From the NCBI RefSeq assembly GCF_025602895.1, contig NW_026516218.1:840127-904126 (forward strand): a stretch of 64,000 bases of DNA, read 5' to 3'. The notes under the pieces were generated by a model. It did not search any database. It was not told the DNA's origin and saw nothing but the letters and a program-made list of their open reading frames with translations. This DNA is from Polychytrium aggregatum. Its lineage: Eukaryota > Chytridiomycota > Chytridiomycetes > Polychytriales. A program made the position numbers and the translations under genes. Below, piece after piece: positions 606-28,128 of this stretch; the stretch's first letter is position 1, and each line of letters starts with the position of its first letter.

Positions 606-1867
606 ACAAGGCGAATGCGACACCCGCTGCCCAATCGGCGCCGGCAGAGAGCTGCGCTGCTGACTAATGAGCTCCATTGGCACGACGCCGCGCATTTCTC
701 AGCTCGCGCAATGTGCGCAGCCGCTGAGATACTGCCGGGACGGATGTGCGCAGCAGCAAACCGCAGTGTGGCTGGCCCGCCTTGCGCCACGCGTTCATTC
801 ATCTATCCAAATGTGGGCGTGTGTGACGGCGATGTCCGAATGCGGTATTATCGATTCTCCCTCCCCCCGGCGGGATCCACCACGCCCAATCCAGCAAAAT
901 CACCTTCCAAAGATCGCCTAATCGATTGCACCTCTTCGCTTTTGTCTTTGCCGGCCCTTCCCCTCGCTCGTCCTGCGTCCTGCCTCGGGCGTCTCGCTCC
1001 CAGGACACAGAGCCCTCAGAGTCCTTCCAGAGCTCTTCCAGAATCCTCCGGTGACCCACCCAGTCGCTCGGACTGCCATCAGCGCCATTGCCCTCGCTCC
1101 TTCCCAGAGCCCAGCTTGGTCGCCACGCCGCCTTTGCGTTGCAGCGTGCGTCTCTCGACAGTGTTGCACTCGAGACCGTCTCTCTCGCTCCGAGGTCGTG
1201 TCTGTCTGTCTCGACTGCAGCCGCATCTACTGCTCCGGTCTGCTGTACCATTCGAGCAGTACAAAGCACCAAACAATCACGCCAAAGGCGGATAACTCTG
1301 TCCGCTCGTTTCTGTTCGCCCCTCAAGCGTTCGGCGGCGTCAACGGCGTGTACCGACATCTGCGCACTTTGTGATTATCTGTCGTGTTGCCCGGATTCTC
1401 GTGGCGTTCTAGTTGCCGTCACCACAGCCCAATCGAGCCCAGATACCGGCACGCCCATTTCTTCGGAAGACAGCCCTCTGGCACGCATTCGCTTCGACCT
1501 TCTTGGACACGTCCCAAAGTTCATATCCAGATCCCCGTCCGCTGTCGCTCTGTCAGCTCACCAAAGCGTGTCTGGAGCTATTGCATAGACCTTGGCTCGC
1601 AACCTGGGCCAACTGAAAGCTGCACTAGAAGCCTATAGATCATCTCTCCGCCTGTCCGATACCAAGGCAAGTGGCCTGCGGTCTCGCTTGCCGACTCGTG
1701 TCGGACGCGACAAATGCAATGTCTCTCGAGGTCGCCGATCGCGGGGTTTCTTTGCTCTGGCTCGTGCAGCAACCTGCTCAATCTGTACTGACTTGTCACC
1801 CCTCGTTTCCGACCACTGCAGGCCACAACCACCTGCCGAAACCAGCAAACCACCGCCGACCGCCCAG
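606..1867. other. Intergenic region, no gene recognised
   Basis: Open frames here have no recognisable domain and overlap each other. CT-rich stretches around 950-1250 on the plus strand are typical of fungal promoters and 5' leaders, and probably belong to the homeodomain gene that follows. Confidence 0.4.
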
Positions 1868-3487
1868 ATGGAAACCAACGACTCTGCTGCGGTATCAGCA
1901 CCCGGATACCCACCATCAAGCCCGCACTCTGGCACCGCGGCGACATCACCACCGACACTTGCGCCCTTGCTCCCTGTCCCCCTGGCATCGTCGTTTGCCC
2001 CTGAGAATTCGGGCTCGTCTTCACACATGTCTGGACCACCGCTAACCCCGTCGTTCACCTACAAAAGACTCAACTGGATCAACTCCCAGCCACACCATTT
2101 CAATCCTGACGACTCCTCCATCATCGGCAAGAAGCGCCGCAGACGTACCACCCAGGACGAACTGCATGTTCTTGAGTCGTACTTTGAATCCAATCAACTT
2201 CCGAATGCCGCCATGCGCGAGAAGCTTGCCAAGGAGACCGGCATGACCACCCGTGCGGTGCAAGTTTGGTTCCAGAACAAGCGCCAAAGCTTGAAGAAGA
2301 AGCAATGTTCCCAGCCGCCCGTCTCCCCGCCGCCGTACCACGCGAGGCCCTTGGAGCTCAGCTCGCCGATCCGGGTGTCGAATCCGCTGCCCCTTCCCGC
2401 CAGCATAGCGTCCAGCCCGTCCAATCCATCCAATCTGCCGAGTCCATCAAATCCATTACAGGCCTATTTGATCGGCTCACCTGAAGTCGAGTCGCCCCAG
2501 AAGCGCTCGGGAACCAAGGCGACACCCGTGTTCCAAAAGTTCAAGTTCCACACTTACAGCTCCCCATCCTCCTCAGCATCAAAGATCGCCGTCCCTGATT
2601 CGCCCGCAGAGCTCACGGCCATGTCCCCGAGCAGGCGCCCCATGTCTCAGGCTCATCACTCTCCTCTGAAGCCGCCGGCTCCGTCAGCTCGCAGAGCTCA
2701 CTCTCACCTTTCGCCATCGACACCGACCCGTCCCGCTGCCCAGATGCCGGCGAGTGTCCAAGACGACGACCTGGCGGCGATTGCTCTCGTCGATTTGTCC
2801 CAGTCACTCTTCAACTCGCCGACCCGGCCCCGTGTTCGAGCCACAAAGACCCCACAGAGCCGTCGTGCCGTACCCGTTGGCAGCTCCGAAAAGCGAAGCG
2901 GCCTGCCATCCGACCATCACGAGCCCTCTAACCTGGTGCCCCAACTCACCCTTTCCGACTCTCTGCTTTCGTGCGTTTCATCGTCATCGTCGAGCTCTTC
3001 GCCGCCGAGCTTGATATCTGCCCTCGCTGCTGCATCATCGTACGACTCGGATCGCGGGCCGCCCGGCCTGGCCCTGGACTCGGCCAGCTCCTGTGACTCT
3101 GTGGATCTGTCGGATATGGAGTCGTTCAAGGCGAAGCGAACAAAGACATCTGGCCTTGACAGAGCACCCAGGTCCTCGGTGGCAAACGATTCTGGCGAGG
3201 ACACTGAGTCGGATGCATCCACCGCATCCACCGTTGTGCTTTCGAGATCAGACTCGTCTCTGCCAGCAAAGCCGGTCTGGGCACCGAGTCCCCCAGTATC
3301 CGGAGCAAGTGTTGGCACGCTGCAGGCGGCACCGACGCTCACCTCGTATATCTCGTCCAAGGAGGAAGAAGAGGCTCTGGCGGTGCTGACGTCGCTGTCA
3401 GGGTGTGCTGCCGACAATGTCGGCCCCACAGATGCAGTGGCCGAGTCTCCTCTCGATGTTGATGGCCCCTCAAATCGATCGTCGTGA
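1868..3487 (+). CDS. Homeodomain transcription factor
   Basis: A 539-aa protein from the ATG at 1868 (METNDSAAVS). The frame is open upstream to 1592 but has no in-frame ATG there, so this start is preferred. A homeodomain occupies residues about 88-146: a basic N-terminal arm KKRRRRTT, then helix 3 with VWFQNKR at 133-139, the DNA-contacting signature of sequence-specific homeobox factors. The rest is low-complexity and rich in Ser, Pro and Ala, with several SP and TP sites, as in fungal regulators of the Yox1/Pho2/Pah1 type. No second domain is visible. It should act in the nucleus; targets cannot be inferred. The single-exon coding region ends in TGA at 3485-3487, followed by a T-rich 3' flank. 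Confidence 0.85.
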   Translation: METNDSAAVSAPGYPPSSPHSGTAATSPPTLAPLLPVPLASSFAPENSGSSSHMSGPPLTPSFTYKRLNWINSQPHHFNPDDSSIIGKKRRRRTTQDELHVLESYFESNQLPNAAMREKLAKETGMTTRAVQVWFQNKRQSLKKKQCSQPPVSPPPYHARPLELSSPIRVSNPLPLPASIASSPSNPSNLPSPSNPLQAYLIGSPEVESPQKRSGTKATPVFQKFKFHTYSSPSSSASKIAVPDSPAELTAMSPSRRPMSQAHHSPLKPPAPSARRAHSHLSPSTPTRPAAQMPASVQDDDLAAIALVDLSQSLFNSPTRPRVRATKTPQSRRAVPVGSSEKRSGLPSDHHEPSNLVPQLTLSDSLLSCVSSSSSSSSPPSLISALAAASSYDSDRGPPGLALDSASSCDSVDLSDMESFKAKRTKTSGLDRAPRSSVANDSGEDTESDASTASTVVLSRSDSSLPAKPVWAPSPPVSGASVGTLQAAPTLTSYISSKEEEEALAVLTSLSGCAADNVGPTDAVAESPLDVDGPSNRSS

Positions 3488-3942
3488 AGAATTTGGTGGC
3501 TCTGCTTTCTTTATCACTATTTTTTCTTGCTTCCTCATGATTTTTTTTTTTGGAACCTTCACAAATTGGCTCTGGGCCTTGACCCGCGACGATGATGCCG
3601 ACGTGCCCCTGATGTATTCACTTTCGCTTGTTCGACCTGTCCGAGGCCTGCCCCCCCCCTTGGCCATCACATGAACGACCTGGCAGCCAGCAACAGGGCG
3701 CAGCCGTCTTCGTTTCGGTTTGTAATGCCATGTAATTGGTGACAATCTGTTTTGGAATGGCCCGTCGCCATTTTCTGGAGCCTGAATACACACATATCTC
3801 GAGAGCTTCCAGGATCGGAATCGTCGCCAGGCTGACCAGAGTCGCGTCTGGTGGTCGCTGTCGAGATACCGCCCCCTCCAAATGCAAGCCCAGGCTTGGC
3901 CTCCCATCTCGCCTTCATCTCGTCCATCGCATCCCAGCCGCC

Positions 3943-4965
3943 ATGAGCAACCCTGACGGCTCGGCCATCCGCGGTCTCGGACTCGACCAGTTCCTGCTCT
4001 TTGGAGACTCGATCACCCAGTGGAACTATGATCCCTCGAACCACGGCTGGGTTGCCTCCTTGGCCCACAAATACATCCGTCTGGTCGATATCGTCAACCG
4101 CGGGTTCTCGGGTATGGATTCCGGGAGTCCTTAACTGCGTTATCTTTGGCTCGCTGGCAAATCTCGCAGGAAGATCCTGTGGATCCTTCGTTCATCTAGA
4201 ATACGAGCAGGCGTGCGCTTGCTCTACGATTCCAACATCCTACTCTCCCCATCGCCCACTTGCGCAATCCGACGCATCTTGAGATCCGGCTGATGGTGTA
4301 TCTCTTGCTGGCGACCAACACAACCTACTTTCTGCCATCCAGGCTACAACACCGAGTGGTGCCTCCCGATACTGCCCTCGATCCTCGAAACCACCCTCCC
4401 CAGCCAGGGCAGAAACAAGATCCTGCTGGTTGTGCTATTCCTCGGGGCCAACGATGCAGCATTCCCTGCCACCCACCGCCAGCATGTGCCTCTCCAGCAA
4501 TACAGCGACAATCTCACCAGCATGATCCGCATCGTGCGGGCCCACCACCCCGAAGCCCGGATTCTGCTGGTGACGCCCCCGCCTGTCTTTGCCGACGACT
4601 GGGAGGTCAACTGCGTCGCGAAGGGCCGCCCACTGGACCGCACTGCCGACATAACCTTCAAATACCACACAGCCAGTCTGCAGGTTGGCCAAGCGACGGG
4701 TGTGCCCACGCTGGACACTTGGAAGCTCTTCTTTGGCCCCGAAGGCCGGTACGACCCCGTCGTCGCCAAGTCGGTTTTGCACGATGGGCTTCACTTCAAT
4801 GCCAAGGGCAACGACATTTTTGCCGCGGGCATCCAGGACCGCATTGCGACGCTTTGGCCCGAGTTGACCCCAGAGCAGCTCTTCAAGGATCTGCGTCTGC
4901 CATGGCACGACCAGCTGGATGTCGACGACCTTCCCGAGAGCCTGTTCCGTAACGAACGCAAATGA
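3943..4965 (+). CDS. GDSL/SGNH esterase, IAH1 (isoamyl acetate hydrolase) type
   Basis: Two exons, 3943-4111 and 4343-4965, joined across a GTATGG...CCAG intron, give 263 aa. The splice restores RGFSGYNTEW, a conserved block of IAH1-like esterases. The SGNH blocks are present: FGDSIT with nucleophile Ser23, the Gly57 turn, LGANDA with Asn93, and DGLHFN with Asp204 and His207. The family hydrolyses small acyl esters and is usually cytosolic; no signal peptide is seen. Length agrees with the family (about 240-260 aa). The frame stays open without the intron only to a TAA at 4132-4134, so splicing is required for a functional enzyme. Confidence 0.88.
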
Positions 4966-5083
4966 AGGCCATCCCACCGATAATCACTGCCGATCGGAGG
5001 GGCAGCACGAGCGACGACGCTGTCGAGAGGAGAGATCCGTTGACAGTGCCAGATTCCACAATGGCCGTAAACCACGTCGAAAA

Positions 5084-5331
5084 AATCCGATCCAATAAAA
5101 AACGGGAAACCCTTGATTTGACCATTGATCAAAAATTTGTTGTCCTAGACCATCGCGCGCTGGCCATGACCATTCTGTGATTTGAATCAAGGACGACACC
5201 CAGGCGACCAAGTCCCAAGATTCCCGGGATGGCTTTCTTGCAATACATTCGCCATGTGTCCGATGGAGACATGCTGGATAAACAGCTGTACTCCAGCCTG
5301 ACCCGGCGACGGCGATTCAAGCAACTCGATC
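5084..5331 (+). mobile_element. Internally deleted relic of the Fanzor/Tc1 transposon
   Basis: Bases 5084-5177 match the transposase end of the full element at 21472-21380: the TIR core CCAATAAAAAACGGGA, the spacer TTTGACCATTGATC, then CATCGCGCGCTG and ATGACCATT around the transposase start codon. From about 5201 the sequence jumps to the Fanzor coding region, encoding YIRHVSDGDMLDKQLY and LTRRRRFKQLDL, equivalent to about 18409-18535 reversed. Both parts are in the same order and orientation as in the full element, so this copy lost the transposase body and most of Fanzor and then decayed. The far end is lost near 5331. Confidence 0.8.
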
Positions 5332-5926
5332 TATTTCGAGCAATTCATCCATGTGTGCCAGGACGGGAAGGGCTGGCTGAACGGAAGACTGGCCGAGTGA
5401 GGGACATGGAGCATTGGGGCAGGTCCAAGCCAAAGCGTTCGTCTGGCTGGCGGGGCACCGGTCAAATTTGCACTCCTTGCAAGGAGAGCGGCCCGCACTT
5501 TGCTTGCCAGGACAAGTGCAGCTATGTTTGGGCACAAGAGGAAAGCGCTTGTTGGCGGTGGAGTGCTTCTTGGGCTCATGGAACCCGGCTTGCTCGCAGG
5601 AGGCCGCTGTGCGTGTCGAGAGCAAGGAGCAGCGGGCGGCTGTTGACAAGCACCGGCCAGAAGAGCCGCGTCTCCAATAGGGGAAGTCCGCGATGTACAA
5701 GGCAGGCACAGCAAAGTGCCCACGCTCGCACAGCAGGGCATACTCGTCTGTACTCCAGATCGGCCTGGGCAACAAGCGATCGCCGGCCATGGATATCCCT
5801 GTGAGGTCCTGTGCGTCCGCGAAAACGCAAGAGCGATCCGCGTGCCTGGCGGTGGGGGCGGGTGGGCCCGACACAAGACAGCTCCTGGACGGCCGATTTC
5901 CCACACGAGGGCGGCTGGTGCAGCGA
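5332..5926. other. Upstream region of the chitinase gene, no gene recognised
   Basis: Long overlapping frames on both strands lack domain-like features. This is probably promoter and remnant sequence between the transposon relic and the chitinase gene. Confidence 0.35.
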
Positions 5927-5934
5927 TATAAAGG
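5927..5934 (+). promoter_or_regulatory. TATA box of the chitinase gene
   Basis: TATAAAGG lies about 80 bp upstream of the ATG at 6008, with a short leader between. Confidence 0.55.
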
Positions 5935-6007
5935 CTTGCCCCCGAGCGCAACATTCGTAGGGGCAGCACTGTTGCTTCCTCTCGCCATCCTCGCAACCGC
6001 TGTCGCC

Positions 6008-7861
6008 ATGAAAATCGCCTTGGCCCACCGCTTGCTTGCCCTCTCCGCGCTGGCCTGTGCCGGCGTCGCTGCCCGCACCTCTCCTTCGGCCACTTGCCAG
6101 GAGTGGAGCGCTGCCGGCTCCTATGTCTCTGGCGACTGCGTCGAATATGCCGGCAGCTCCTGGCACTGCGCCACCAGCTACTGCGTTGTTTCGCCCGACA
6201 GCCATGGCACCGGATGGGAGCTTGCATCCAGCGGGGATCTGGTCGCCGCTGCTGCAAAAACGACCAAGACAACCAAGACCAAGACAACCAAGACCAAGAA
6301 TACCAAGACGACCAAGACCAAGAAGACCAAGACCACCAAGACAAAGCCCACCAAGACAACCAAGACAACCACCACGAAGAAAACCACCACCACTACCACC
6401 ACCCCTGCTCACACCACCACTACAACGACCACCACCACTCCCGCTCGAACCACGACCACCACCACCACCACTCCGGCTCGCACTTCAACCACCACCAAGG
6501 CCGCAACCTCGACCACCACGACCACGACCACCCCGGCTCGCACAACGACGACGACGAGCTCGGCCGGCCCCGCCCCGACCGGCACCCTCCCGACCTGCCA
6601 CCAGGCCTGGGTTGCCGTCTGGACCTACCAGGGCGGCTCCATCGTCAGCTACAACAACGTCGACTTCAAGAACAGCTTCTATGCCAACGCCGGCGACGAG
6701 CCCACAAAGTCAAACAACTGGGTCTCGCTCGGCCCGTGCGATCCAAACGGCATGCCCGACGGCCCTGGCCGCGACGGCGTTCCCACCCTCGCCCAGGCCC
6801 GCGCCTTCGAGGCCTCCCAGACCAGCTCGGACCTGTTCCAGAAGATCAAGCGCTCGATCGCCACCCTCGACAACTCGGTCGTCGAGCAGGTCGCTCCCGG
6901 CAAGGCCTCCAACCCGCCCAACGTCAAGCGCGTCGAGCAGATCATCCCCCAGAGCAAGTGGAACTACTACTTCTCGGTCGCCAACCCGCTGTACACCTAC
7001 ACCGGGTTCCTCCAGGCCGTCGCAAAGTTCACGGCCTTCTGCGGCGACTACTCGGACGGCCGCGACGCCAACGCCATCTGCAAGCGCTCGCTGGCGGCCA
7101 TGTTCTCGCACTTTGCCCAGGAGACCGGCGGCCACAGCGTCCAGCAGTACGGCATCGCCGAGTGGCTGCAGGCCCTCGTCGCCGTGCGCGAGAACGGCTG
7201 TCCCGAGAGTCCCGGCTGCAGCTACAACAACGGCTGCGTCGACCCTGTCTGGAACTACATCTGGACCTGCGGCAAGAACCCCGACGGCTCGTTCATGAAC
7301 TACTTTGGCCGCGGCGCCAAGCAGCTGACCTACTTCTTCAACTATGCGCCCTTCAGCCAGATCATGTTCAACGGCGACCCGACCGTGCTGCTCAACGACC
7401 CCGATCGTGTGGCCACCTCCTGGCTCAACCTGGCCTCGGCCGTGTTCTTCTTTGTCTACCCGCAGCCGCCCAAGCCCTCGATGCTGTTTGTCGTTGACGG
7501 CACCTGGGTGCCCAACGCCGACGACATCTCGCGCCAGCTCGGCAACGACTTCCCCACCACCATCCAGATCATCAACAGCGAGTGCCAGGACTCGCCCACC
7601 AAGGCCGCCGCCCAGAACCGCATCAACTACTACCGCAACTTTACCGCCGACCTCGGCATCGACATCAGCCACGACAACCTCAAGTGTGCCGGCATGGGTC
7701 TCTTCAGCGGCCAGAGCTCGGCCGCGCTGTTCATCTACTGGGACAAGGCCGACTCGCCCTTCACCTGCAAGCTGGTCAACTACCAGACGGCCTTCAACGC
7801 CCTGATCGACGACCAGTATGTCTCTTGTGTTGAGCACAAGTGGAACGTGACCCTCAAGTAA
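6008..7861 (+). CDS. Secreted GH19 chitinase with chitin-binding modules
   Basis: A 617-aa single-exon protein. Residues 1-22 are a signal peptide (MKIALAHRLLALSALACAG). A chitin-binding-like module follows at about 29-73 (CQEW...GDCVEY...W...GW, CBM5/12 style). A 110-residue linker at about 84-193 is almost only Lys, Thr and Pro, first KTTKTKT repeats and then poly-Thr with PAR breaks, probably O-glycosylated. A second CBM5/12-like module runs from about 196 to 245. The C-terminal half is a GH19 endochitinase: FAQETGGH holds the likely catalytic Glu, and YFGRGAKQLTYFFNY is the second conserved block. It should hydrolyse beta-1,4-GlcNAc chains by inversion outside the cell. The upstream in-frame extension is non-coding, because the TATA box and signal peptide fix the start. 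GH19 is common in plants and bacteria and patchy in fungi. Confidence 0.88.
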   Translation: MKIALAHRLLALSALACAGVAARTSPSATCQEWSAAGSYVSGDCVEYAGSSWHCATSYCVVSPDSHGTGWELASSGDLVAAAAKTTKTTKTKTTKTKNTKTTKTKKTKTTKTKPTKTTKTTTTKKTTTTTTTPAHTTTTTTTTTPARTTTTTTTTPARTSTTTKAATSTTTTTTTPARTTTTTSSAGPAPTGTLPTCHQAWVAVWTYQGGSIVSYNNVDFKNSFYANAGDEPTKSNNWVSLGPCDPNGMPDGPGRDGVPTLAQARAFEASQTSSDLFQKIKRSIATLDNSVVEQVAPGKASNPPNVKRVEQIIPQSKWNYYFSVANPLYTYTGFLQAVAKFTAFCGDYSDGRDANAICKRSLAAMFSHFAQETGGHSVQQYGIAEWLQALVAVRENGCPESPGCSYNNGCVDPVWNYIWTCGKNPDGSFMNYFGRGAKQLTYFFNYAPFSQIMFNGDPTVLLNDPDRVATSWLNLASAVFFFVYPQPPKPSMLFVVDGTWVPNADDISRQLGNDFPTTIQIINSECQDSPTKAAAQNRINYYRNFTADLGIDISHDNLKCAGMGLFSGQSSAALFIYWDKADSPFTCKLVNYQTAFNALIDDQYVSCVEHKWNVTLK

Positions 7862-17844: not shown

Positions 17845-20544
17845 TCACTTCCTGGCATCAGCGACACAGGTCTGCTGATCCGTAGACCCCAGTGGGCAGG
17901 TCGTGCGATTGTTTCCCGTCCTGGTTGGCAATCTCTTTGTTTTGGGTGGGTCCGGAAGCACAGTCTTGAATACACCCGGTCGATCTCCTGTGGCGATGAT
18001 CGACTGGCATACCGAGATCATATTCCTGGCTGCATTGATGTCTCGATCCCACAGCGTATGGCAGCTTGCACAGCTCCGGACAAAGTGTGGTTTCTCGACA
18101 TCAAGATGCTCGACCTTCTCGAGTCGCTTGGCTTCCCGACAATGTGAGCACACCTGGGATGTGTTGAACTCGTTCACCGAGCACACATGGATCTTGGAGA
18201 CGGATCGGTCTGGTGGGCCTCTCTGGTGGTGGTGGAACTGCTCAAAGTACTTGGCGAACCTGAGTCTCCTGGGACTGGAAGCATATCCCTTCCCCTGTTT
18301 CCAGGATGCATTCCCAAAGGCAATCACCACTTCGGTCTCCCTTGGTGCCTGGTCAATGACTCGCTTGCACATCTCGTGGACGGTGCGCTGTCGCTTGCTG
18401 TGGAGATCGAGTCGCTTGAATCGCCGTCGCCGGGTCAGGTTGAAGTACAGCTGTTTGTCCAGCATGTCTCCATCGAACACATGGCGAATGTATCGCAAGA
18501 AGGAAGCCAACCCAGGGATCTTGGGACTTGGTGTGGTGCTCATCCATTGCTGCAGACCAAGGATCTTGTGGGTGCTCTGGATCCACTTGGTCGCTTGGGT
18601 GGTGCCAGTTCGATGCTGGTACTCCTTGTTGGAGAACGACACGATCTTCTCGTTGGCGCGCTGTGCCTTGGTCACCTTGACACCGTCTTGCTCCTGGATG
18701 GATGGTTGACCGGGAGCTCGAATGACAGCGGTGAAGATCGATCCCACACCAGGGTCGATCCCGATCCATGTGGTCCGAGAGTCGTCAATGGGACCGACTC
18801 TGGCCTGGATCTTCTTCTCGAGAGTGAGCTTGGGTGTCTTATCGTCCTTGTCTGTGGTTTCTGGTTTGGCATCAGGATCCTTCTTCTTCAGAATCTTGTA
18901 CCTGAGTGTGGTAATCGAGCACCCGACTCCATCGGTGGTGATCTCGCAACCAAAGAGCTGCTTTCCCTCCTTCCTGGCACCAAAGAGTCTCGGATCCAGC
19001 TTGAAGTTGGTCTGCCAGAAGGTCTCTTGCCTTGTGGTGCCATTGACCTTGGTCTTCAGGTCGTCCCACTTGAGTCCAGTGCCAGTCTGGTATCCAAGGA
19101 TTTCCCACAGTGCTTTGGTGTCGAGCTTGACATACTTGGCTCGGGCATCGCAGAGCGGGACCAAGGTGCACTGTGCTCGAGGGACATTGTGTCGCTTCTT
19201 CGTCTGGGCAAGCCGGTCGGTGAGGCGCTTGATCCGCTTCATGTTCACAGCGATCTTCTTGTCCACCTCCTCGTGCTGGGTCTGGAGTGCGTTGTGTTGA
19301 TCCAACTGCCTGCGTTCGATAGCGCGACACATCTCCTCGTTCAGTCGTCCGCGCTCTCCTTTCAGATCATCGGTATCCCTCACGAGCCTGGGGATGATTC
19401 TGTTTCGAATGGTCGCCACGAACAGTGTCTCCTTTCGGTGGGTCAGCCGAGAGACTTCACTGGCCAATACTGGTACGACTTGATACAGGTCCTGCTGGCT
19501 TTCGTACCGAAGCTCATACAACTGGTCGGCATGGTGGGCGAAGGATTTTCTCAGATCACCGAGGAGTGTCTTGGAGAGGGGATTCTCCATCAACTTGACA
19601 CAGTTGTCGACGTGTGTGTGCCGTTTCACACCCTTGGGAGCAACCAGGACCAGATTGCAGAATCGGCGTAGAAGGGACCAATACCGATCGAGAATATGGG
19701 TCTCACAGTTGACGGCATAGGCCTTGTCAGCCAAACCAAGGACCTGTGAACCAGTGCCCTTTGGGAGGATTACAGGAGGTAGGGCACACGATCCACTCCA
19801 TGTACTTCGATACAGCTCATAGGTGTCGAGGAGGTGCTTGTCTTCTTGGATCGTGCCATTCTTGACATCTGTAGCTCCGGTATGCACCATGTTGAAACAC
19901 TTTCGAACGAACGAAGGGTCACTCGACGACACAGTGGGGATGGTGATGCCCTCGTCCAAGCATCGCCTGAGATGCAGCTCCAGGAGCCGAGATGCTTCGT
20001 ACTGCACATGGGTCATGGCCCGGACAGTCTCCTCGATCTTGTCGTGCAAGGCGCCGTTCTTGATGATGGCGTCAAGAGTGCACTTGATGATCGAGTACTC
20101 GGCCTTGGCATACTCGTTTGGACCACAGTCGGGCTCGGTAGAGCTCCAAAGGGGGTTCTTTTTTGAACACAACGAGCTGCTGCTTCTGGCATGACCCTCT
20201 TCCCCACATGTGGTACATACAGGGACTTTTGGTGCAGGCGTCTCGACCACGAGGGCCGGAACGGCGATGTCTTCACTGGACTCGTCTGGAGGGGGTGCTT
20301 GGCAAACGGCGCCAAAGGCAGACGCCGAGTCAGAAGGGGGGCCCAACTCGGTTCGGGCCTTGCATTTCTTGGTGAATGGCTTGACGTGGTTGGTCAATCC
20401 ACAGGCACGACATGATTTGATGACGGGTTTTTTGGCAGCAGGTGCGTCACTGGGTTGTCCAGGATCTGGATTTGGGTCAGGCGGGGATTTTTTCTTGCGG
20501 GGAGCCATCTGTCGCGATTTCGACACCCCGCTGGTTCTACCCAT
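17845..20544 (-). CDS. Fanzor (eukaryotic TnpB-like RNA-guided endonuclease)
   Basis: An intact 899-aa frame from the ATG at 20544; MAPRKKK at residue 13 is an alternative start. Residues 1-120 hold basic stretches and two CX2CX4HX7C knuckles (CRACGLTNH... and CTTCGEEGH...). The C-terminal part is the OrfB/TnpB RuvC nuclease: RuvC-I WIGIDPGVGS with Asp597, a RuvC-II block VVIAFGNAS near 744 that lacks the usual Glu, VNEFNTSQVC with Glu792 about 48 residues later, a zinc ribbon C799/C802/C825/C828, and RuvC-III WDRDINAA with Asp835. Fanzors cut DNA guided by an RNA made at the transposon end, and a relocated catalytic Glu is a known Fanzor trait. The arrangement inside a Tc1-type element fits Fanzor1. 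The stop codon lies next to the TIR, so the guide RNA probably overlaps the gene's 3' end. Activity is not shown. Confidence 0.9.
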   Translation of the reverse strand: MGRTSGVSKSRQMAPRKKKSPPDPNPDPGQPSDAPAAKKPVIKSCRACGLTNHVKPFTKKCKARTELGPPSDSASAFGAVCQAPPPDESSEDIAVPALVVETPAPKVPVCTTCGEEGHARSSSSLCSKKNPLWSSTEPDCGPNEYAKAEYSIIKCTLDAIIKNGALHDKIEETVRAMTHVQYEASRLLELHLRRCLDEGITIPTVSSSDPSFVRKCFNMVHTGATDVKNGTIQEDKHLLDTYELYRSTWSGSCALPPVILPKGTGSQVLGLADKAYAVNCETHILDRYWSLLRRFCNLVLVAPKGVKRHTHVDNCVKLMENPLSKTLLGDLRKSFAHHADQLYELRYESQQDLYQVVPVLASEVSRLTHRKETLFVATIRNRIIPRLVRDTDDLKGERGRLNEEMCRAIERRQLDQHNALQTQHEEVDKKIAVNMKRIKRLTDRLAQTKKRHNVPRAQCTLVPLCDARAKYVKLDTKALWEILGYQTGTGLKWDDLKTKVNGTTRQETFWQTNFKLDPRLFGARKEGKQLFGCEITTDGVGCSITTLRYKILKKKDPDAKPETTDKDDKTPKLTLEKKIQARVGPIDDSRTTWIGIDPGVGSIFTAVIRAPGQPSIQEQDGVKVTKAQRANEKIVSFSNKEYQHRTGTTQATKWIQSTHKILGLQQWMSTTPSPKIPGLASFLRYIRHVFDGDMLDKQLYFNLTRRRRFKRLDLHSKRQRTVHEMCKRVIDQAPRETEVVIAFGNASWKQGKGYASSPRRLRFAKYFEQFHHHQRGPPDRSVSKIHVCSVNEFNTSQVCSHCREAKRLEKVEHLDVEKPHFVRSCASCHTLWDRDINAARNMISVCQSIIATGDRPGVFKTVLPDPPKTKRLPTRTGNNRTTCPLGSTDQQTCVADARK

Positions 20545-20595
20545 AGGCAAGAAAAAACCAAGGGTGATTTTGACGCACTTTTTCGATGGTATGAT

Positions 20596-21389
20596 TCACG
20601 CCCAGAAACACATCGCGCGCTCAATCAGCCGTGGGAAGACATCTGGAAGCACCCTCCGAACGGCAGACTCAAACAGGGTCACCATCCCGACTCTGAACCC
20701 CTCGGACGCATTCAGCGCTGCTGCCTTCCTGTACTGATGCTTCACAATCCCAAAGAAGTTCTCGATGGGATTGAAGTCGGGCGAGGCAGGTGGGGTGAAG
20801 ATCACTGACCATCCTCGGTGCTCGATGCAGTCCAGGACAGCCCTTGTCTTGTGCATGCTGACATTGTCCATCACAATCACAGAGTCGTCTGGGAAGCACC
20901 CTTCGGTGAGTATCCGTAGAGAGGGAAAATGGATCTCCTGATCCCTGTCTCGTCGACAAAAACAAATCGCCGTCGGGGTCGATGGAGCGGACCCTGGTCC
21001 CTGAACTGTGCCACTCGCTCATCCAGTCGCTTGGACTTGTAGAGGTGTGTTGCCCTCTTGTGTGAGAGACCTGCTCGGTGGATGGCAGTGTGGCAGAGTG
21101 AGAGCGACACTTTCCTCTGGAGGATGGACTCGAGCTTGCATCGCAACACAGGACCAGTCTGGAACGGGTCCTGTTCAATCAGGGTGCGAATGACTGGACA
21201 TGCCTGCTCGAAGAAAGTGGATCTGCGAGCCGGGACCCGGGATGGGTCATCCAGCTTGCATCCTCGGTGCCATCGATGGATGGTGCTCTTGGATACACTG
21301 AATATGGAGGCGACCTTACGCAGGCTATGGATGAGGGCGTAGCATCGCAATGCGGCGGTGCGAAAGTCGGATGTGTGGCGAATGGTCAT
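20596..21389 (-). pseudogene. Broken IS630/Tc1-type DDE transposase of the Fanzor element
   Basis: The ATG at 21389 begins MTIRHTSDFRTAALRCY, a helix-turn-helix DNA-binding region (KVASIFSVSKSTIHRWHRG). The first catalytic Asp is in VFVDETG (about 20950). The frame then ends at 20877 just after GYSPKG. A second frame begins CFPDDSVIVMDNVSMHK with the second Asp, then SPDFNPIENFF with the third acidic residue, and stops at 20596. In Tc1/IS630 proteins about 50 residues separate GYxPKG from the DN motif; here they nearly touch, so an internal deletion with a frameshift is likely. The protein could not form a complete RNase H fold. The 52-bp gap to the Fanzor start suggests shared transcription. 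Confidence 0.82.
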
Positions 21390-21446
21390 GGTCAGCGCGC
21401 GATGGTTTTGGGTAACAAAATAATCGATCAATGGTCAAAACCTGGG

Positions 21447-22499: not shown

Positions 22500-25400
22500 T
22501 TACTCATCGACTGCTGTTCTTGCCACTTCGAAAGCGGCAGTGATGGCTGGTCGAGCTTCGATGTATCTGGCAACCTCGGCTCGGATCTCTCGGGTGTTGA
22601 GGTAGATTGGCTGTGGTGGTAGGAGTGTTAGTTGAGGGACTGGAGGAGTGGTGACAAGTGGCTGGACTTACCAGGATGATGACTGGACGGTAGGGTGTTT
22701 CAAGGGACAAAATAGCAACCCCGTCGGATGGAGTGAAGACACGTTCCCTCCAATTATCAAAGAGGGAGTGTGGGACCTTGGTGATGTGGATGCCATGGCG
22801 GATCCATTGGGGAGCGCTGCGTCGGTCGATTTCGGTCCACTGGGACGATGCATGTGGGTTGGATGCGGCGGTAAAGTTGGAGGGATCTTCGTCGGAGCGA
22901 ACCCACTCGTCACCGCGACGGACCCAGAGGATTTGATTGCCACCCACGTCGCGAGACAGAATTGAGTTGCCATCGGGCGAGATCGCCACAGAGAACACAT
23001 AGTCTGTGTGTCCCTCGAGGGTGTGCTTCACCTGGCCTGTGGTGGCATCCCACACCTTGATGGTCTTGTCCTCAGAGCCAGAGGCAATCCACTTGCCATC
23101 GGGTGAGATCGCCACAGAGTACACATAGAGTGTGTGTCCCTCGAGGGTGTGCTTTAACTGGCCGGTGGTGGCATCCCACACCTTGATGGTCTTGTCCATA
23201 GAACCAGATACAATCCACTTGCTATCGGGTGAGATCGCCACAGAGTTCACACTTCTTGTGTGCCCCTCGAGGGTGTGCTTCACCTGGCCTGTGGTGGCAT
23301 CCCACACCTTGATGGTCTCGTCCCCAGAGCCAGAGACGATCCACTTGCTATCGGGTGAGATCGCCACGGATCTCACACTGCCTGTGTGCCCCTCGAGGGT
23401 GTGCTTCACCTGGCCTGTGGTGGCATCCCACACCTTGATGGTCTCGTCCCCAGAGCCAGAGACGATCCACTTGCTATCGGGTGAGATCGCCACAGAGTTC
23501 ACACTTCTTGTGTGCCCCTCGAGGGTGTGCTTCAACTGGCCAGTCGTGGCATCCCACACCTTGATGGTCGTGTCCTCAGAGCCAGAGACAATCCACTTGC
23601 CATCGGGTGAGATCGCCACGGATCTCACACTGCCTGTGTGCCCCTCGAGGGTGTGCTTCACCTGGCCTGTGGTGGCATCCCACACCTTGATGGTCTTGTC
23701 CTCAGAGCCAGAGACAATCCACTTGCCATCGGGTGAGATCGCCACAGAGTTCACACTTCTTGTGTGTCCCTCGAGAGTGTGCTTCAACTGGCCAGTCGTG
23801 GAATCCCACACCTTGATGGTCTTGTCCTCAGAGCCAGAGACAATCCACTTGCCATCGGGTGAGATCGCCACAGAGTTCACACTTCTTGTGTGTCCCTCGA
23901 GAGTGTGCTTCACCTGGCCTGTGGTGGCATCCCACACCTTGATGGTATTGTTGTCACCAGAGCCAATAATTGACCCGGACCCAGAGACAATCCACTTGCC
24001 ATCGGGTGAGATCGCCACGGAGAACACAGTATTTGTGTGTCCCTCGAGGGTGTGCTTCAGCTGGCCTGTGGTGGCATCCCACACCTTGACGGTGTTGTCT
24101 TTGGAATCATGTGATCCAGAACCAGAGGCGATCCACTTGCCATCGGGCGAGATCGCCACAGAGTTCACATAGTCTCTATGCTCCGTAAGTGTCATCACAC
24201 ACGGATCCCAGGTGGGTGCTGGACCGCAAGTGACCAGGAACGGGATCTTGTCCTCGAGTTGGTCAGCATATGTCTTGTAGATCGCCGTCTCCTTCGGTGT
24301 GAATGCATATCCCGAGTTGTACACCTGTGGTGCACTCTTGATGATCGGGTCGGCAAATTCGCGGATGAATCGATACGTGTCCTTGACCAGTTCCTTCGTG
24401 GTGTCGTCGACGATGGTGCTGGGTGCCTTGGCGATCACTCCTCGCAGCACAGCCAGTTGCTCGGCAATCTCCTGAATACGATGTGTGAGTGACCCACACT
24501 CGAGCCAGTGGAACACATGGGTCGACATGAATTGGGTGAGAGACGGGGCCAATTCTTCGAAGGATTGTGTCTCAAAGGGACCATCCAACTCAACACCATT
24601 GACCTTGGTACCCTCAATCAGATGGGTGACCCAGTGGGCGACGCTGTATCGCAGCGACGGTGTGATGGTTTTGTTAACCCTGTCCTCGAGGTCTGGGATC
24701 TTGTCGTGAAAGTCGAAGATCTCGCAGATGTTGACCACTGGCTCGTGCGAGAGGATCACACCGAGACATCCCTTGGCAAACACCGTGTGGAACGAGCTCG
24801 ACACATGCCATGGCTCATTCTTGGACTCGTCGCCGAGGAGATAGTCCGCCACCGACTTGTGGTTGAACTTGACCTCGCCATCGTCGGTGGATCCGTTGGC
24901 ACCAGGAGCGAGAACCAAGTTGAGACTCCTCAGGCATTCGTGAACTATGCGGAGTGCATATCCCTCGGCCACGTTGCGGAAGAAGACCCCGGAAATCATA
25001 TTGGGCGTGAGGATGGTCTGCGATGTGGCGATAGCCGAGATCACGGTGATCAGTTCGCCCTTACGGCTCGACCCGGAGTGGATCTTGGTGAATGTGATCC
25101 CGTAGAGCTGCTTGACATCAGTGGCACTGTCATTGAGCTCCCTGATCTTGGTGAGTGTGATGGCTTCGCTCTTGGCCTGCTCCTTGAGCGTGTTAAGGAT
25201 CAGGTTGATCCACACGAATGTCTTGGATTTGTCATCGTCAGCCGAATCCTTGGTATCAGCTGGCTTTCCATGTTCATTCGACTGAGCCGGGTTGTGGAGG
25301 ATGATCTCGATGGCCTGATCTCTATCGACCTCGGTGAGTCCCTTGTGCTCGTTGGTGAGTCGGTGTCTGATGAATACCCTCAAGTCGGCGATATTCTCAT

Positions 25401-28128
25401 CGCTCGAGGGCTCGATTGTTTTGGCATTCACTCCATGGAATGCTGCCTTGATGTCGTCCTCGGGACGAGATGTCAGCAGCAGCTTGAGCCACGGACGGGT
25501 CTTGTTCAGCTCGACGAACCGCCAGGCAAGCAGACTGAGCAGCTGGTCGCGTGGAGAGCACTCGTCGAGTGCATCCACCAGGATCATCACCGATCCCTTG
25601 GGTCTGTATTTGCCGATGGCCTCGAGTGGATCGGCAATCACAGCCTTGAACAACTCGGGGATGGGCATCTTGTCGAGACTGTCCTTGGAGTGGCCAGCAT
25701 CGAGCAGCTTGCGGCCAATCGGGGCATACCACTGGCACAGGCCGTATGCGATCGTGCTCAGCACGGCCCGCGGATCGCTCTTGCGGGTGTCGTTGTACTT
25801 GAGGAACAGCGCCGACACCAGCTGGTTCTTGCCCCGGAGGAAGCTGGCCAGCTTGGCTGCGGCAACAGACTTGCCCACACCAGCAACGGCATTCACCCAC
25901 AGGACAGTGTCTTTGGTGTCTTCGTTGACCCAGTGAGTGACTTGGTCGAACAGCCACTGGCGGGTACCCTCGACATACAGATCCTCAAGGTCGTGCTGGT
26001 CCTGGGTCGAGTCGACGGGATCGAGGAGGGATCGCAGGAGCGAGTCTTGTTCGGCGGTGAGGACGACACTGCCGCCTTGTGTGTACACGTCGCCCTCCTT
26101 GGCGGCAGTGGAAGTCTTTGTTATGAGCTCGTGAATATTGGGCACTAGTCTGTCGAATATCAAGAGTGTGAGATTGTATCGATAACATGATATACAACAG
26201 TGATACGCTTACCTCCGCAGTGCGTTTCCGTCCGAGGCATCAAGAGCCTGTAGCTTCATCAGCTCGGCAAAAGTTTCACGGATCGACATTGGCTTCCCAT
26301 CGAACAACGGGCTCTTCTCGTGGATCGGAGGGTAGTCAGGGAGCTCTTTGATGGGCGGGAAGTACTTCTTCTGGAATGTCTCGCCATCGATCTCTTTTGA
26401 ATACCACATGAAAATTGGCTGGATGGTAACGGGGTTGCCACTCTTCTCGCCATCCTTCATTCTCTTGAGAGCGTGCTGGATCTATAGACACAATGGATGT
26501 GAGACTGCGAGTTTGAGGGTAAAGAGGGAGAAGTGAAGATACGTACCTCGAGAAATTGATTGTCTTTCTCATTGTGCGCGTTGTAGGTTTGATCGAGTCC
26601 AGCCTCGGAGAGAACTAGGACAATCACGTCCGATTGGTAGAGACCATTGATGAAACCTTGTTCCCAGGGCATGCCGTCACAGAGACAGAGACTGTCGAGA
26701 TAGGGATGAAGTGCCATTTGGCCTCGCGGAGTGACAGCGAGGGTTCCATGCAGGGCAGTCGCATTGCTGGCGTCACTACGGACTCGGTAACTGTGGGGGC
26801 ACATGTTAGCTGGGTGAAATGACGTGGTTGCGAACGAATCACCGCTTACCTGATGAAGACGTCGTGCTTCACATAGTGTGTTTTGCACTTCCAATTCTGG
26901 GTCGGTTCTGCCGGAGTGTACTCGCTTGGATCCAGGAGACGTTTGGGCGGAACAATAGTGGGTTTGGAAGGTTTTGTTGGCTCCTTTGGTTTATCGAGTC
27001 TGGGTGAACCATGCTTTTGTTGTGCAATTTTGAGTTTCATGATGGCACCATCATTCAGGCCGACCTTGGCAATCTGGATATCATCGAGAGCAAGGAGCTG
27101 TGGAGTGCAAGGGTCAGTAACGCACTTGGTTGATTCTATGGATGGTAAAGGATACCTACCACATCGACGGTGTCGTAATCGCGTTCCTCAAAACGGCCTT
27201 TGAATTTAGTGAGTCCGTTGTCCTCAAGGAATTTATGGAACGTATTCGAAGTATTGCGTAGTGGCTCCTCGTCTGAGGCAGTTGCTTGGATAGGCTCTGT
27301 CTGAATGATATCGTTGACACTGGTTTGGTAATCTGGTGGTGGAGATGTCAGAATGTTGTCCAGGGGCGTTTCATCACCCTCCACTTTGATATCCGATTTG
27401 GGTTGGGGAGTGGCTTCTTTGTCTTCAGTAACATTTGTTTGCTGGATAGTGGAAGTGGATGCTGGTGCCGGATTGGAACTGGAGGGGGAGGCAAGAGCTT
27501 GACGATGCCTTTCCTGCGCATTCTTGAGGGTTTTGATATGACCAATCTTCAAGCCAATATCCTTCATCTCTTTGCCATCTAAGGTGAGGAGCTATGGTGC
27601 ACACGTTAGCAATGCGGGTCAAAGTACCGAGGATTGGAGCCGAGATCAAGCTTACTAATTCGATAGAATTCAATCCGTTTTCGATGAAGCAATCTCTTTG
27701 CTCATTGAGGCCATATTTCTTAAGGAATTCATCAAATTCTTTAGACTCCTCTGTCAATTCGGTCTCTTCGTCTTCATTAGAGGTCCTAGCGGTTTTGGAT
27801 TGAATGTCGCCGGGTTCCTTGGTGTTAACTTGGGGGGTGTCATCTTTGGATCGAATGAATGAAAGTCAGATCACATGACAAACCAATCCAATTCGAACCA
27901 CACTGGATCCGTGGCTCGATCCACGATCACTCCGATGACGGGGGTTCGATTCCCGACATCGCCATTTTACCGAGAAGTCGTCCTGGTTTATCTCCAATCC
28001 ACGACCATTATTGTTCAGAATCGATTCAGCAATCAACGACACTGACCTGGTGCTTGTTTCTTCTGGTGCAACCACCAGAGGGACAGCAGTCCAACGAGGG
28101 CTGATATGACGATGATCCTTTGGAGCAT
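22500..28128 (-). CDS. SAM-SAM-TIR-NACHT-WD40 NLR-like protein
   Basis: Eight exons: 28046-28128 (tentative), 27656-27785, 27160-27591, 26850-27097, 26547-26790, 26213-26481, 22672-26149 and 22500-22610. All junctions are GT-AG and in phase; the model is 1,664 aa. Domains: a hydrophobic N-terminus (5-21), SAM1 (about 45-105), an acidic Ser/Thr/Pro linker, SAM2 (about 189-245), a TIR domain (about 291-410) opening HDVFISYRV, with Glu341 in PWEQGF at the position of the NADase catalytic Glu and VLVLSEAGL after it, a NACHT P-loop ATPase (Walker A AVAGVGKS with Lys562, Walker B ILVDALDE), then ten WD40 repeats (1126-1555) and a short helical tail. SAM domains oligomerise, TIR can cleave NAD+, NACHT switches on ATP binding and WD40 is the likely sensor. 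This suggests an immune or allorecognition NLR whose output is a SARM1-like NADase. Function is inferred. Confidence 0.85.
22870..24180 (-). repeat. Ten WD40 repeats of 42 codons, nearly identical at DNA level
   Basis: The 126-bp units encode H-T-x-x-V-x-SVAISPDGKW, then SGSxDxTIKVWD and TTGQ(L/V)KHTLEG. Units 1 and 2 carry short insertions after SGSG, and unit 10 is degenerate. Units 3 to 8 differ mainly at the residues after HT, before SVA, and in SxDxT. Confidence 0.9.

Follow-up and report, generated by a model that had tools for sequence, protein, structure and literature searches.

This study asked whether a single gene of the chytrid Polychytrium aggregatum (Chytridiomycota, Polychytriales), which is described as a saprotroph, joins SAM-SAM-TIR, the domain order of SARM1, to the NACHT and WD40 domains of a fungal NOD-like receptor (NLR). 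The gene lies on the minus strand at 28128-22500 of the 64,000-nucleotide stretch that was analysed, here called the window (contig NW_026516218.1, positions 840,127 to 904,126). Its eight exons splice into a predicted frame of 1683 residues that contains, in order, a hydrophobic N-terminal segment, two SAM domains, a TIR domain, a NACHT domain and ten WD40 repeats. The predicted protein would most likely work like a SARM1 that is gated by an NLR.

All seven introns of the model are of the GT-AG type and measure, in order, 203, 64, 62, 59, 65, 63 and 61 bases. Exon 1 (28047..28128, residues 1-27) encodes the hydrophobic segment, a possible membrane anchor with a 19-residue Kyte-Doolittle mean of 1.83, and similar starts (1.70-2.58) were found in nine relatives, namely seven paralog models and the database proteins P0121 and P0122. 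The first half of SAM 1 is encoded by exon 2 (27656..27843, residues 28-90), its second half, a linker and the first half of SAM 2 by exon 3 (27160..27591, residues 91-234), and the second half of SAM 2, a linker and the TIR start (HDVFI) by exon 4 (26850..27097, residues 235-316). The TIR core, with Glu360 placed by profile alignment, falls in exon 5 (26547..26790, residues 317-398) and the C-terminal half of the TIR, supported by the paralog models, in exon 6 (26213..26481, residues 399-487). Exon 7 (22672..26149) contains NACHT (residues 549-716), a helical region and the WD40 repeats (about residues 1214-1560), which form a tandem array of 7.8 copies of a 126-bp unit with 91% matches (22967..23951). 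The C-terminal 36 residues and the stop are encoded by exon 8 (22500..22610), which was matched in the paralogs L031, L032, L037, L038 and L044. A first-pass annotation of the sequence had proposed five small in-phase exons upstream of the NACHT-WD40 exon; the phasing was borne out, the count is six, and a small last exon has to be added. The motifs that it had named were all found in the model: HDVFISYRV at residue 312, PWEQGF around Glu360, VLVLSEAGL at 374, the Walker A motif AVAGVGKS at 575, and ten WD40 stretches. In Pfam, SAM_1 matched two stretches of the piece spanning both SAMs (4.6e-10), NPHP3_N, a NACHT-type family, scored 1.4e-27 (97.3 bits, cut-off 24.8), and WD40 matched ten stretches behind NACHT. 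A tRNA-like stretch within intron 1 (27918-27970, plus strand) was discarded, as ARAGORN makes no call there.

With regard to the exon joins, a spliced aligner written for this analysis reproduced the window model and was applied to 20 paralog loci of the same genome (L029-L048), selected from the listed genome matches. All 20 paralogs share the intron at residue 317 (phase 2), 18 have the one at residue 398 (phase 0), 18 the one at 488 (phase 2), 15 the one at 234 (phase 0) and eight the one at 90 (phase 0), and the lengths of introns at shared positions differ among paralogs. None of the 20 spliced models contains a stop. Given that the aligner penalises stops and may invent introns over indels, as appears to be the case in L040 and L047, the shared intron positions carry more weight than the stop-free models. 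No intron separates the C-terminal TIR half from NACHT in L034 and L035, where the two lie in one unbroken frame. The open frames of L029 and L030 were considered as further TIR-NACHT fusions and rejected as proof, since they cross introns of 138/132 and 63 bases, which are multiples of three. SAM-SAM-TIR and NACHT-WD40 very likely belong to one gene, as had been proposed, and a Chytriomyces protein (P0002, below) shows the same order.

SAM and TIR domains beside those of SARM1

Two profiles were used for the TIR, one built from nine family TIRs and the other from an alignment of SAM 2 and TIR with eight chytrid rows. Searched against PDB, the first retrieved 20 sequences up to E 1, of which 17 were SARM1 and three VCAM-1, so that SARM1 was the only TIR found. 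In this alignment Glu360 stands opposite the Glu of the KFEDKL stretch of SARM1, which we take to be Glu642; the key residue had previously been placed at Glu341, and the alignment moves it. With the second profile, TIR-1 and SARM1 filled the first 19 of 43 places, with AbTIR at 0.07 and plant Roq1 at 0.14. SARM1 and TIR-1 both carry the PDB name NAD(+) hydrolase. A structure comparison with the SARM1 TIR, which the first-pass annotation had suggested, was run on the P. aggregatum protein P0121, whose model was built from 8 sequences and reached a mean pLDDT (predicted local distance difference test) of 61, with SAM blocks at about 76-92 and TIR blocks at about 68-82. The fold search matched it to the Caskin tandem SAMs and to TIR folds, and among the TIR rows listed SARM1 had the highest identity (30%).

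The SAM domains are closest to those of Caskin, Eph and ANKS, the SAM profile scoring 3.4e-12 for Caskin and 0.032 for SARM1. No ARM family appears in the full Pfam lists for the N-terminal pieces of the window gene and its homologues, and where SARM1 has the BB-loop motif E(R/K)LEAG (PMC7075850) the window gene has LCLCDG. The window gene thus shares with SARM1 and TIR-1 the tandem SAMs before the TIR, the TIR profile match and the Glu in register, and differs in its internal TIR and in the addition of NACHT and WD40. Judged from these sequences, it is not a SARM1 orthologue (TIR group 24), because its SAMs are nearer to Caskin, it has neither ARM repeats nor the BB-loop motif, and its TIR lies internally. 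The SARM1 likeness claimed earlier therefore holds for the TIR and the order of parts, and does not extend to the SAMs. As a separate observation, visual inspection of the translations of one locus, L008, showed several TIR-like segments.

WD40 repeats and the receptor family

The WD40 repeats are near-identical, and five of their 41 positions are the most variable ones, in four loci and again in seven others. These five are spaced like sites 11, 12, 14, 30 and 32 of the Podospora HNWD proteins, which matches by spacing five of the seven variable HNWD positions of PMC12222747. Under a permissive choice of repeats, the ratio of nonsynonymous to synonymous polymorphism (pN/pS) was 1.45 at the five sites versus 0.52 elsewhere (43 repeats, four loci) and 0.98 versus 0.46 in the seven other loci (59 repeats). 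A higher contrast (1.90 versus 0.13, 26 repeats) was set aside, as the pattern used to choose the repeats holds most other positions constant. The few highly variable positions lend support to the earlier suggestion that the WD40 region is a sensor. The window gene shares with HET-E, HET-D and HET-R of Podospora the plan of a TIR-superfamily effector, NACHT and WD40, as well as the near-identical repeats and the spacing of variable positions; HET is treated as a TIR relative in PMC12881547 and PMC4986451. The HNWD proteins, however, carry a HET domain where the window gene has SAM-SAM-TIR. HET had no Pfam match in the N-terminal pieces of the window gene and its homologues, and a genome-wide HET search gave no matches, but its controls gave none either. 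The general features of a fungal NLR are present, namely NACHT/STAND with Walker A and repeats, and an N-terminal effector in the same predicted polypeptide. Those of plant TIR-type NLRs are not, as residues 489-1088 match NPHP3_N and, weakly, NACHT in the full Pfam list, with no NB-ARC or leucine-rich repeats.

The assembly (64.7 Mb, 418 contigs) contains many relatives of this gene. With P0121 as query and scoring limited to the best 100 of 222 candidates, at least 102 matches were obtained, at least 99 of them TIR places. Among the matches listed, 91 of the 99 TIR places are followed, on their own strand and at most 2 kb away, by an NPHP3_N match, and conversely a TIR lies upstream of 94 of the 101 merged NPHP3_N loci. 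Since near-identical places on different contigs were counted separately in both figures, the number of distinct genes is smaller than the place count. From these counts, the TIR-NACHT family likely supplies most NACHT-type receptors of P. aggregatum, and most of these would likely act through one animal-style cell-death effector. With tblastn at E up to 0.05, 18 of the paralogs showed SAM evidence and two, L029 and L030, showed none; two separate SAMs are clear in L031, L032, L037, L041 and L042. Another locus, L049 (1758-6027), encodes in a single frame of 1423 residues a TIR-like start, a P-loop and many near-identical TPR repeats. It is, like the window gene, a TIR-led receptor-like protein and possibly represents a second class of such receptors in the same fungus. 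It differs in having TPR instead of WD40 repeats, its TIR_2 match is under the cut-off and its core domain was judged by eye; no SAM was seen, and its TIR gave no matches in a single-sequence PDB search.

Outside the genome, a protein search with residues 28-560 gave no matches, and one with residues 305-720 passed 183 of 7989 scored candidates, 120 of which were listed. The first 13 comprise ten named chytrid proteins and three without a name, and some cover NACHT only. P0001 (Chytriomyces hyalinus, HDU78_009105; 47% over 100% of the query), P0002 and P0003 (Chytriomyces sp. MP71, BC830DRAFT_1141173 and BC830DRAFT_1233804) are 47-50% identical to residues 305-720. The other named matches are P0005 (Chytriomyces hyalinus), P0008 (Phlyctochytrium), P0009 (Entophlyctis), P0010 (Obelidium), P0011 (Chytridium), P0012 (Nowakowskiella) and P0013 (Rhizophlyctis). 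P0002 shares the full SAM-SAM-TIR-NACHT-WD40 order, with two SAM stretches and TIR all above their Pfam cut-offs. P0001 and P0003 read SAM-TIR-NACHT-WD40, with TIR above and SAM under the cut-off in P0001 and both under it in P0003; P0001 continues into a second SAM-TIR. TIR is above the cut-off with a weak SAM in P0008 and alone in P0009 and P0010, and neither domain was matched in the N-terminal part of P0012; a PB1 domain considered for the P0009 N-terminus found no support. P0002 and the one-SAM relatives are annotated as hypothetical proteins. An unnamed protein of 1231 residues, P0057, is a TIR-NACHT fusion by its precomputed Pfam record, which lists TIR and NPHP3_N, and stands apart from the named chytrid rows.

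The first-pass annotation knew of no fungal NLR with this exact order, and we found no description of a SAM-SAM-TIR-NACHT-WD40 protein in the literature searched, which covered few subscription papers; the database, however, holds P0002, and chytrid TIR-NLRs are already in print. PMC9815663 refers to reports of TIR in NLRs of Chytridiomycota and separately mentions a SAM_Ste50p N-terminus and the SAMs of SARM1. The accessible text of PMC9815663 and PMC10197012 names neither this order nor a SARM1-like TIR nor a family this large.

Proposed mechanism and its alternatives

Taken together, the domains suggest that the gene probably encodes an intracellular receptor in which WD40 sensing leads to a NACHT oligomer and to NAD+ cleavage by SARM1-like TIRs. 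The WD40 region, the likely sensor, would bind a non-self or altered-self ligand, and binding would switch the NACHT ATPase into an oligomer that gathers the TIR domains. The tandem SAMs likely help the TIRs to pack, the hydrophobic segment may tether the receptor to a membrane, and the assembled TIRs would likely cleave NAD+, so that the cell dies or is disabled. NLR gating would replace the role of ARM in SARM1, keeping SAM-TIR silent until triggered. We infer oligomerisation, SAM packing, membrane tethering, NAD+ cleavage and a cell-death output from sequence.

Several observations weigh against this reading. The profile search that had been proposed for all four domains confirmed SAM_1, NPHP3_N and WD40, but TIR_2 on the window TIR alone (1.2e-4, 23 bits) stayed under its cut-off of 28, which weakens that domain call. 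Only profiles find SARM1: a single-sequence PDB search with the window TIR did not retrieve it, and one with the TIR of L001 gave four TIR proteins, none of them SARM1, although such searches are no like-for-like control for profile searches. By Z in the fold search, SARM1 was tied with other TIRs and not above them, and the BB-loop motif is not kept. The Glu is not universal, as detailed below, and its position was read in a part of the TIR places, namely 40 motif-matching exons and the window and paralog models. At the WD40 sites, pN/pS values of 1.45, and 0.98 in the seven other loci, do not establish positive selection there, and we rate the explanation slightly lower because of the lower values under the permissive choice. 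Finally, P0121 and P0122, two database models of P. aggregatum, break off ahead of NACHT.

A doubtful alternative, though the strongest, is that the TIR, like those of plant and bacterial systems, is an enzyme whose product, a cyclic ADP-ribose isomer or a similar nucleotide, signals to a second protein, rather than simply depleting NAD+; the sequence profile nearest to SARM1 argues against it. It is unlikely that the TIR is a scaffold that forms assemblies and draws in further TIR or SAM proteins without cleaving NAD+ itself, as animal adaptor TIRs do. Of the genome places that read W-x-QGFING exactly, 40 in number, four have Ala (on C24, C125, C161 and C374, with L041 and L042 among them), and such natural Glu-to-Ala copies keep the TIR conserved, with a ratio of nonsynonymous to synonymous substitutions (dN/dS) of 0.10 for L041 against the window gene. 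The BB loop unlike that of SARM1 fits a scaffold too, as does the replacement of Glu in three of the eight chytrid alignment rows, which carry K, N and Q (Lys in P0001, Asn in P0002) against E in the other five. Against it, Glu is retained at the other 36 places and in 19 of the 21 window and paralog models, and the nearest sequences of known structure are the NAD(+) hydrolases SARM1 and TIR-1. On this sequence evidence, the variation of the Glu counts against one catalytic story for every member and favours a mixed set.

It is highly improbable that the genes are mostly a decaying or selfish repeat family, maintained by duplication and not function. The window does end at the contig end, retroelement frames lie beside the gene, the genome has about 90 TIR-NACHT places and some copies look shortened, for example in the WD40 part of L042. 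Nevertheless, dN/dS (Nei-Gojobori, ten paralogs against the window gene) is low, at 0.10-0.27 for the TIR core in seven of ten pairs and 0-0.27 for the SAMs where defined, the remaining pairs either lacking differences or having a saturated dS, and several dS values behind these ratios lying above 1. In addition, all 20 paralog models are free of stops and variability is confined mainly to the five WD40 positions. As regards P0121 and P0122, a search for shorter proteins with the second TIR profile found four, two of them from P. aggregatum, and among name-bearing rows these two are the only ones from this fungus. P0121, 417 residues long with a hydrophobic start, two SAMs and a TIR, aligns with C57:39509-40900 in blocks of 88-96% identity that extend at their ends into introns. 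Because NPHP3_N follows each on the same strand (C57:38432-38935 for P0121, C101:655694-656197 for P0122), both are likely truncated gene models. The least probable alternative, two adjoining genes, is favoured by these models stopping inside the TIR and opposed by NPHP3_N within 0.6 kb after the last matched stretch of each, by the phase-2 intron at residue 488, which is missing with the frame intact in the two paralogs that lack it, and by the long Chytriomyces proteins, themselves gene predictions, that contain both halves.

If the SARM1-like, NLR-gated receptor is correct, it would be a case of an NLR performing the gating that falls to ARM in SARM1, in a fungus where a single effector type heads almost the entire NACHT repertoire; PMC10197012 counts 14 N-terminal modules in fungal NLRs. 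According to the same paper, TIR-like enzymatic function is suspected for the HET-type effectors of fungal NLRs and still awaits demonstration. A fungal NLR with a recognisably SARM1-like TIR, in Glu and natural Ala versions, would make that question directly testable. The family is easy to miss, as the named P. aggregatum database models stop before NACHT. More tentatively, chytrids may have made a SARM1-type SAM-SAM-TIR NADase their standard NLR effector and run it as a network, with many Glu executors and with Glu-to-Ala members as sensors, decoys or brakes in mixed SAM-TIR assemblies. Were this so, SAM-TIR death effectors would date back to the ancestor that fungi and animals share, or else the pairing would have arisen twice.

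Neighbouring features of the window

A Fanzor/TnpB-like open reading frame of 916 residues lies on the minus strand at 17845-20595 (Cas12f1-like_TNB, 1.3e-9). Adjoining it, frames at 20596-21434 have a weak HTH_23 match and look transposase-like by eye. With introns allowed, ARAGORN reports a single tRNA-Ser within the Fanzor-like frame (18521-18629), which is likely spurious. Six retroelement pol-like frames with RVT_1 (one under the cut-off), three of them with a chromodomain, occupy 39097-63005 and end about 1 kb short of the contig end. On the plus strand, 1589-7858 holds a homeodomain frame and a GH19 chitinase with CBM5/12.

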